Below, in pieces: positions 36,378 to 37,949 of a stretch of DNA of 38,082 nt. The translations under genes and the position numbers were made by a program. Source of the DNA: Candidatus Curtissbacteria bacterium (GTDB lineage: Bacteria; Patescibacteriota; Microgenomatia; Curtissbacterales; GWA2-41-24). A model generated the notes under the pieces. That model did not search any database. It saw only the letters and a program-made list of their open reading frames with translations, and had not been told where the DNA came from. The stretch spans positions 1 through 38,082 of the forward strand of contig JACQIV010000002.1 of NCBI GenBank assembly GCA_016198325.1. The letters run 5' to 3'. Every line of letters begins with the position of its first letter. Within the stretch, counting starts at the first letter, position 1.

Positions 36378-36764
36378 ATGATCCTTGGAATTGATCTTGG
36401 CCAGAAAAAATCGGGTCTGGCAATTTCGGCAGGCCAACTTGCATCGCCTTATAAAACCATCATCCACAAGAATTTAGAACAAGCTGTCACTACGATGATA
36501 CGAATCATCGTAGTGGAAGGTGTTAAAACTGTCGTCATTGGGTACGTAGAAGGTAAAACACAAAAGCAATTCCAGAAATTTGCCGATCTTCTGAAATCAA
36601 AAAGACCGGATCTTGAAATCATTATGCGGGACGAAACTTTAACCACTAGACAGGCGCGCGAAACTATGATTAAACTCGGTGTACCGAAAAAGAAAAAAAA
36701 TAAACTCGAACACGAGTATTCGGCTGCCGTTATCCTGCAAAGTTATTTAGACGAAAATGATTAA
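36378..36764 (+). CDS. ruvX: RuvX/YqgF-family putative Holliday junction resolvase
   Basis: ILGIDLGQKKSGLAIS, VVIGY, RDETLTTRQARETM, HEYSAAVILQSYLDEN. Confidence 0.9.
   Translation: MILGIDLGQKKSGLAISAGQLASPYKTIIHKNLEQAVTTMIRIIVVEGVKTVVIGYVEGKTQKQFQKFADLLKSKRPDLEIIMRDETLTTRQARETMIKLGVPKKKKNKLEHEYSAAVILQSYLDEND
36488..36515. repeat. Perfect inverted repeat inside ruvX
   Basis: CACTACGATGAT-ACGA-ATCATCGTAGTG, 12-bp arms, 4-nt loop. Confidence 0.92.
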
Positions 36765-36960
36765 AAGAATTCTTGCGCCGGTCCAGGCATGGATTTTACT
36801 CCAGGGCAGATGCCCGGGTTGTGGTCAGAATCTGTCTATCGGACGTAAATTTGAAAAGATAAATAACACCCAAAAAGTGGTCTGTAACTGCCGCCGCATC
36901 TATATATTCAATAAAAGGAACGGAAAATACCACAGGGCAAGTTTCGAGGAGGCACAATAA
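36757..36960 (+). CDS. Small putative zinc-ribbon protein
   Basis: CPGCGQ...VVCNCRRIY; 67 aa, overlaps the end of ruvX. Confidence 0.6.
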   Translation: MIKRILAPVQAWILLQGRCPGCGQNLSIGRKFEKINNTQKVVCNCRRIYIFNKRNGKYHRASFEEAQ

Positions 36961-37949
36961 AAAACAAAACAAAATTTATTGTAATCGGTGTCATTTTTAT
37001 TATTCTTGTAGTAACACCTATTGCTTTAAATAAGTATTACAACTATTTACTAGCAGCAAGATCAACTTCCCAGTCGGAAGATACGATATTTATAGTCAGA
37101 CCCGGTGAAGCTGTTACAAATATTGCCTCAAACCTTAAAAACGAAGGGTTAATTAAAAGCCCGCTTGCATTCAGGCTCCTTGTTTCTCAAATGGGAATTG
37201 CAAAATCAATTCAGGCCGGCGACTTCAGACTTTCTGCGTCAATGACCTCCCGGCGGATTGCGGAAGAGTTGACTCATGGGGCAATTGATGTTTGGATTAC
37301 AATACCAGAAGGCTTAAGGCTGGAAGAACAAGCTGCAAAAATTGAAGAGAAATTAAACTTTGGCAATAGTATATTAGCTTTCGACAAAAAGGAGTACATC
37401 AAAAACGCAAAAGAAGGATATATGTTTCCGGATACATATTTAATTCCAAAAGATGCTTCTACCACAGACGTAATAAACAGGTTAAGTGAAACTTTCGCAA
37501 TAAAAACCGAAAAACTATTAAAATCAAAGAACAAAACTAACCTCGCAGAAGATGAGATTATAATTTTGGCTTCGCTTATCGAAAGGGAGGCAAAGAACGA
37601 CGACGAAAGACCGGTTATTGCAGGAATTTTACTGAACCGGATTAAAAGTAATCTTGCCCTTCAGGTGGATGCAACAGTTCAGTATGCAAAGGGTTACGAC
37701 AGCAGCCAAAATACCTGGTGGCCGCAAGTTTCAACAGATGATTACCAAAAGGTGAAATCACCCTACAATACATACCTTTCACTCGGCCTTCCACCCGGAC
37801 CGATTTGCAATCCCGGCATAAAATCAATTGAAGCTGCGCTCAACCCGACCCAAACGGAATATTATTATTATCTGCACGACACAGAAGGTAAAATTCATTA
37901 TGCCGAAACAATCGACGAGCATAACGAAAATATCAGGAATTTTCTTTAG
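36957..37949 (+). CDS. mltG: Endolytic murein transglycosylase MltG (YceG-like); probable AUA start
   Basis: (M)KNKTKFIVIGVIFIILVVTP...FIVRPGEAVTNIASNLKNEGLIKSPLAFRLL...ILASLIEREAKNDDERPVIAGILLNRI...LQVDATVQYA...YNTYLSLGLPPGPICNPGIKSIEAALNP; AGGAGG at 36947-36952. Confidence 0.88.
   Translation: MKNKTKFIVIGVIFIILVVTPIALNKYYNYLLAARSTSQSEDTIFIVRPGEAVTNIASNLKNEGLIKSPLAFRLLVSQMGIAKSIQAGDFRLSASMTSRRIAEELTHGAIDVWITIPEGLRLEEQAAKIEEKLNFGNSILAFDKKEYIKNAKEGYMFPDTYLIPKDASTTDVINRLSETFAIKTEKLLKSKNKTNLAEDEIIILASLIEREAKNDDERPVIAGILLNRIKSNLALQVDATVQYAKGYDSSQNTWWPQVSTDDYQKVKSPYNTYLSLGLPPGPICNPGIKSIEAALNPTQTEYYYYLHDTEGKIHYAETIDEHNENIRNFL

Follow-up and report, generated by a model that had tools for sequence, protein, structure and literature searches.

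Organization of the mltG locus

Where does translation of a gene begin when its reading frame holds no canonical start codon ahead of the region encoding the N terminus of the protein? The question is raised by mltG in a window of 38,082 nucleotides, the whole stretch of DNA analyzed here, which is contig C15 of a Curtissbacteria-family MAG (549,505 bases, 29 contigs, 83.46% complete). The closest named records with a similar mltG are from Candidatus Curtissbacteria.

The gene is the last member of a cluster on the forward strand. ruvX (YqgF; 36378..36764; Pfam RuvX 1.6e-24, TIGR00250 over its cut-off) comes first, and its stop codon is overlapped by the start of a 67-residue CxxC zinc-ribbon-like ORF (36757..36960; ATGATTAA), which mltG follows. 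This small ORF is kept in all family relatives (ILAPVQAWILLQGKCVGCG...KGKYHRA) and matched no Pfam or NCBIfam family over the cut-off. The ruvX coding sequence also carries a near-perfect palindrome of 24-28 bp (CACTACGATGATACGAATCATCGTAGTG; window 36488-36515), with two more copies just upstream of a recA-like ORF elsewhere in the genome (G000:C20:28801 and 29273). It may be an SOS-type operator, one copy of which lies within a Holliday-junction resolvase gene.

Read from an ATA codon (36957..36959), mltG spans 36957..37949 and ends at TAG (37947-37949). Scores of 211.5 bits against TIGR00247 (1.7e-62; cut-off 103.4) and 266.1 against Pfam YceG, PF02618 (4.9e-79; cut-off 32.4), identify the product as the endolytic transglycosylase MltG/YceG. 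The frame is closed upstream by an in-frame TAA (36912..36914), after which it reads AAG GAA CGG AAA ATA CCA CAG GGC AAG TTT CGA GGA GGC ACA ATA(36957) AAA AAC AAA. The initial annotation had reported that no ATG, GTG, TTG or CTG occurs in frame before position 37191, and a check of the 92 codons following the TAA bore this out. An AGGAGG Shine-Dalgarno (SD) sequence (36947..36952), located within the 3' end of the zinc-ribbon ORF, precedes the ATA with a 4-nt spacer, and the ATA overlaps the TAA of that ORF (36958-36960) as ATAA; both features, described earlier, are read directly from the DNA. The 16S 3' end GGATCACCTCC is present in the relative G014. RNA folding around the mltG start showed nothing special (z -0.78).

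The N-terminal membrane region had also been placed upstream of the first ATG. Hydrophobicity points to a membrane segment at 36975..37028 (FIVIGVIFIILVVTPIAL), which is conserved in relatives, and the anchor is present only if translation starts upstream of 36975.

The start of mltG in profiles and relatives

Position 2 of the TIGR00247 profile aligns to residue 18 of the frame, three codons after the ATA, and the Pfam YceG domain starts at 37092. Both matches begin upstream of the first canonical in-frame start, an ATG at 37191..37193 (caggctccttgtttctcaaATG), which therefore falls inside the domain. As the first canonical codon, this ATG is what a gene caller would annotate, and initiation there would give a soluble, truncated MltG. 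It lacks an SD sequence, however, its use would remove the membrane segment together with 33 residues of the YceG domain, and relatives begin about 78 codons earlier. We consider a start at this ATG very unlikely.

Comparison with relatives, proposed in the initial annotation, was informative on this point. All 12 family relatives with mltG have a canonical start (5 ATG, 6 TTG, 1 GTG) located -1 to +3 codons from the ATA. Each of these 12 starts is coupled to the zinc-ribbon ORF: it overlaps the end of that ORF by 1-14 nt, abuts it or follows it after a 1-nt gap. TTGA overlaps occur in L005, L006 and L012, and L010 has ATGA, the very overlap that had been expected at the ATA site. In L014, an ATG follows the same SD sequence at the same spacing (GGAGGCTTA-ATG versus GGAGGCACA-ATA here), the codons being GGAGGC TTA ATG ATT AAA AGC there and GGAGGC ACA ATA AAA AAC in this genome.

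Differences between the N-terminal 77 codons and those of relatives fall 388, 183 and 561 times on codon positions 1, 2 and 3 (871 codons compared), and their third-position bias before the ATG at 37191 matches that in the rest of mltG. Judged by this substitution pattern, the stretch upstream of the ATG is conserved as coding sequence. Profile alignment, the starts of relatives and coding-type substitution thus place the start no more than three codons from the ATA. The ATA at 36957 is the only codon there that lies one base from AUG with an SD sequence at a working distance. A second in-frame ATA upstream, at 36927, has AAGGA 7 nt before it; it was rejected as a candidate, as no relative begins there.

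The overlap of the two frames also raises the possibility of a -1 frameshift that would join the zinc-ribbon ORF to MltG with no initiation event, in which case the upstream protein would orient the membrane segment of MltG correctly. The site (GCA CAA TAA), however, contains no slippery heptamer, and the two ORFs are separate in every family relative. We find such a fusion hardly credible.

Probable non-canonical starts of infC in the family

A second gene of this genome, infC (G000:C4:6101-6346), likewise has no canonical start. The sequence before the IF3 core reads TGA AAA AGG GAG GCA CAG GTA AAA AAG TAC TAC, with the GTA at C4:6119-6121. The same absence was seen in 12 of 12 family genomes where infC was found (L168, the copy in this genome, L169, L174-L177, L179-L181, L183, L191 and L196). 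One aligned column contains GTA (8), GTC (3) or ATA (1, in G013), preceded at 5-6 nt by an AGGAGG-like SD sequence in most genomes. Of the Val codons in this genome, 45% are GTA or GTC; for independent genomes, the chance that 11 of 11 Val codons would be of these two types is about 2e-4, and since the genomes are related this value is only a rough guide.

Non-canonical infC starts of the AUU, AUC and AUA types are known together with IF3 autoregulation, as described in PMC5472188 and PMC13009471. The conserved GUA/GUC codon is probably the IF3 start codon and autoregulatory; a GUA or GUC start of infC was not found in this literature on non-canonical infC starts. Because infC lacks a canonical start here, and an ATA stands at the aligned column in G013, the lineage very probably uses such starts. 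Contig C5 of this genome also carries two tRNA genes whose anticodon is CAU. Together, the infC starts and these tRNAs make it plausible that AUA serves as a start codon in this lineage.

Frequency of non-canonical starts in the genome

To place mltG in a genomic context, stop-to-stop frames were compared with nearly the whole assembly of G014 and with parts of G006 and G009, shadow frames being removed. The scan covers genes with a homolog in the compared relatives, and detects cases in which the first canonical codon lies more than about 12 codons from a non-canonical start. About 430 genes closed at the 5' end were compared, and inspection left three with homology well above the first canonical start: mltG, infC and a frameshifted hisS fragment. 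The same scan of 493 genes in G014 returned infC and one frameshift-like case (ORF C2:325375, whose match lies in the later portion of a larger gene), and G006 (184 genes) and G009 (92) showed just ordinary short upstream extensions. Across the three relatives, about 770 genes in all, infC alone lacks a canonical start.

These counts indicate that non-canonical starts outside infC are rare in the Curtissbacteria family, and mltG was the only such case seen in the scan. A general loss of start discrimination was rejected, since among about 430 genes the effect is confined to mltG and infC, and most starts are ATG. Reassignment of AUA was rejected as well: normal reading of conserved genes, and the 26% share of ATA among Ile codons, mark AUA as an ordinary codon for Ile in this genome, and no reassignment is needed.

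The hisS-like gene is frameshifted at about G000:C14:8204-8232 relative to G014, by a difference of about 4 nt that is due either to a faulty assembly or to a true lesion.

The A at 36959, or the loss of a codon at this site, could reflect a fault of sequencing or assembly, or else a minor strain variant carried into the consensus; the population would then have ATG and an ordinary ATGA overlap. The sequence comes from a single MAG, incomplete and in 29 contigs; an ATA in mltG is seen nowhere else in the family; the assembly also contains a frameshifted hisS; and a G-to-A change keeps the upstream stop, so that nothing else would look wrong. Against this, mltG and hisS are the sole anomalies outside infC found among about 430 genes, none of which showed a substitution to a stop within its frame. 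Base errors are therefore not common, and the chance that one would hit any of the roughly 1,500 bases in start codons would be small. We give an error or variant a limited but real chance, somewhat on the unlikely side.

A scan of viral contigs for the same pattern returned one match, GAGGAGGCACAATGAAAAACAAAACAA, on the phage contig L198 (IMGVR_UViG_3300011335_000468), where the same 27 nt occur with ATG for ATA (26/27 identical) in an ATGA overlap. We rejected this match as evidence on the base: the contig is unrelated and has no homology outside the 27 nt, which is a ribosome-binding-site coincidence.

If the ATA is real, it may still be damaging, with mltG silenced or nearly so and on its way to becoming a pseudogene. 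MltG is dispensable in some bacteria, two family members (G014 and G001) have no mltG match, and the canonical start has been lost here in favor of a codon that is not conserved. The frame nevertheless runs for 330 codons with no stop or frameshift and with strong conservation to the last residue, so any silencing must be recent. Elsewhere, moreover, AUA with a strong SD sequence yields measurable product (PMC13009471). We regard decay of the gene as unlikely.

A model for initiation at AUA

We consider it probable that mltG is translated from the AUA at 36957 by SD-guided, coupled and weak initiation, and that the AUA is a lineage-specific change. Ribosomes finishing the zinc-ribbon ORF would terminate at the overlapping ATAA, where AGGAGG would hold them for a restart at the AUA, read by the ordinary initiator tRNA (anticodon CAU). 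Efficiency would be low, a fraction of the rate at AUG, and the product would be full-length, membrane-anchored MltG in lowered amount. Such initiation would also be sensitive to IF3. Re-initiation with an SD sequence is known in E. coli (PMC2268962).

The SD sequence is strong and at a workable spacing (AGGAGG, 4 nt), identical to that preceding the ATG of L014. Several observations count against AUA use. The 4-nt spacer is short, and the SD sequence is also part of the zinc-ribbon coding sequence, so its presence does not speak for the ATA alone. As the broken hisS shows, either this assembly or the genome itself is not free of faults. Finally, the ATA is seen in one genome and shared by 0 of 12 family relatives, and a search for a second genome of the genus returned this genome alone. 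The unusual codon is therefore not conserved among the genomes compared. This weakens, but does not exclude, the claim that it is a genuine start, since lineage-specific cases such as that of citZ exist.

The initial annotation had left a choice between true AUA initiation and a G-to-A mutation or sequencing error. Both options stand, but G-to-A is not the sole mutational route. A G-to-A change in an ATGA overlap would have converted the canonical start while turning the upstream stop from TGA to TAA, a harmless change. Alternatively, a canonical start codon standing before an Ile codon may have been lost in frame. Relatives read TTG-ATA-AAG, TTG-ATC-AAA and ATG-ATT-AAA, a start followed by an Ile codon, and loss of the start would give the same letters.

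Comparison with known non-canonical starts

Among the 4-nt stop/start overlaps of the family, the ATGA and TTGA pairs of L005, L006, L010 and L012 resemble mltG in having the SD sequence within the upstream ORF, and differ in having canonical start codons.

In S. aureus, PMC13009471 describes AUA starts of infC and ccpN found by ribosome profiling, and of ccpN and citZ shown by reporters, with about 10% of AUG activity in poor medium. The closest match to mltG is citZ, an AUA start in a metabolic gene that is described for one strain lineage, S. aureus NCTC 8325; unlike at mltG, its activity was measured with luciferase reporters, and it is not described as a stop/start overlap (PMC13009471). 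Both ccpN and infC of S. aureus combine AUA with a strong SD sequence, as mltG does. The ccpN codon, however, is conserved to B. subtilis and probably regulatory, according to PMC13009471, whereas the unusual codon of mltG is not conserved. Like mltG, sigR of Streptomyces is a gene other than infC with a non-canonical start, but its codon is GTC and not AUA, and repression by IF3 was tested there (PMC5472188).

Autoregulated infC genes start at AUU (E. coli), ATC (Streptomyces) or AUA (S. aureus), non-canonical codons like that of mltG, and the infC of this genome has GTA. Unlike for infC, we know of no reason for mltG to sense IF3. IF3 might control a small set of genes in this Microgenomates family, infC through the family-wide GUA/GUC and mltG through the AUA in this species, which would tie peptidoglycan chain release to the level of IF3; we think this quite unlikely.

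Implications for gene annotation and start-codon discrimination

Most likely, the AUA of mltG is a weakly translated start of a kind that is rare but has been described before. Gene callers commonly take ATG, GTG and TTG only, so this mltG would be annotated 78 codons short and would lack its membrane anchor. Provided that the base is correct, the locus adds an example from the CPR to the few natural non-canonical starts outside infC, and shows how the AUG of an ATGA overlap can disappear with no harm to the upstream gene. The family-conserved GUA/GUC starts of infC, in turn, make start-codon discrimination testable in CPR ribosomes.
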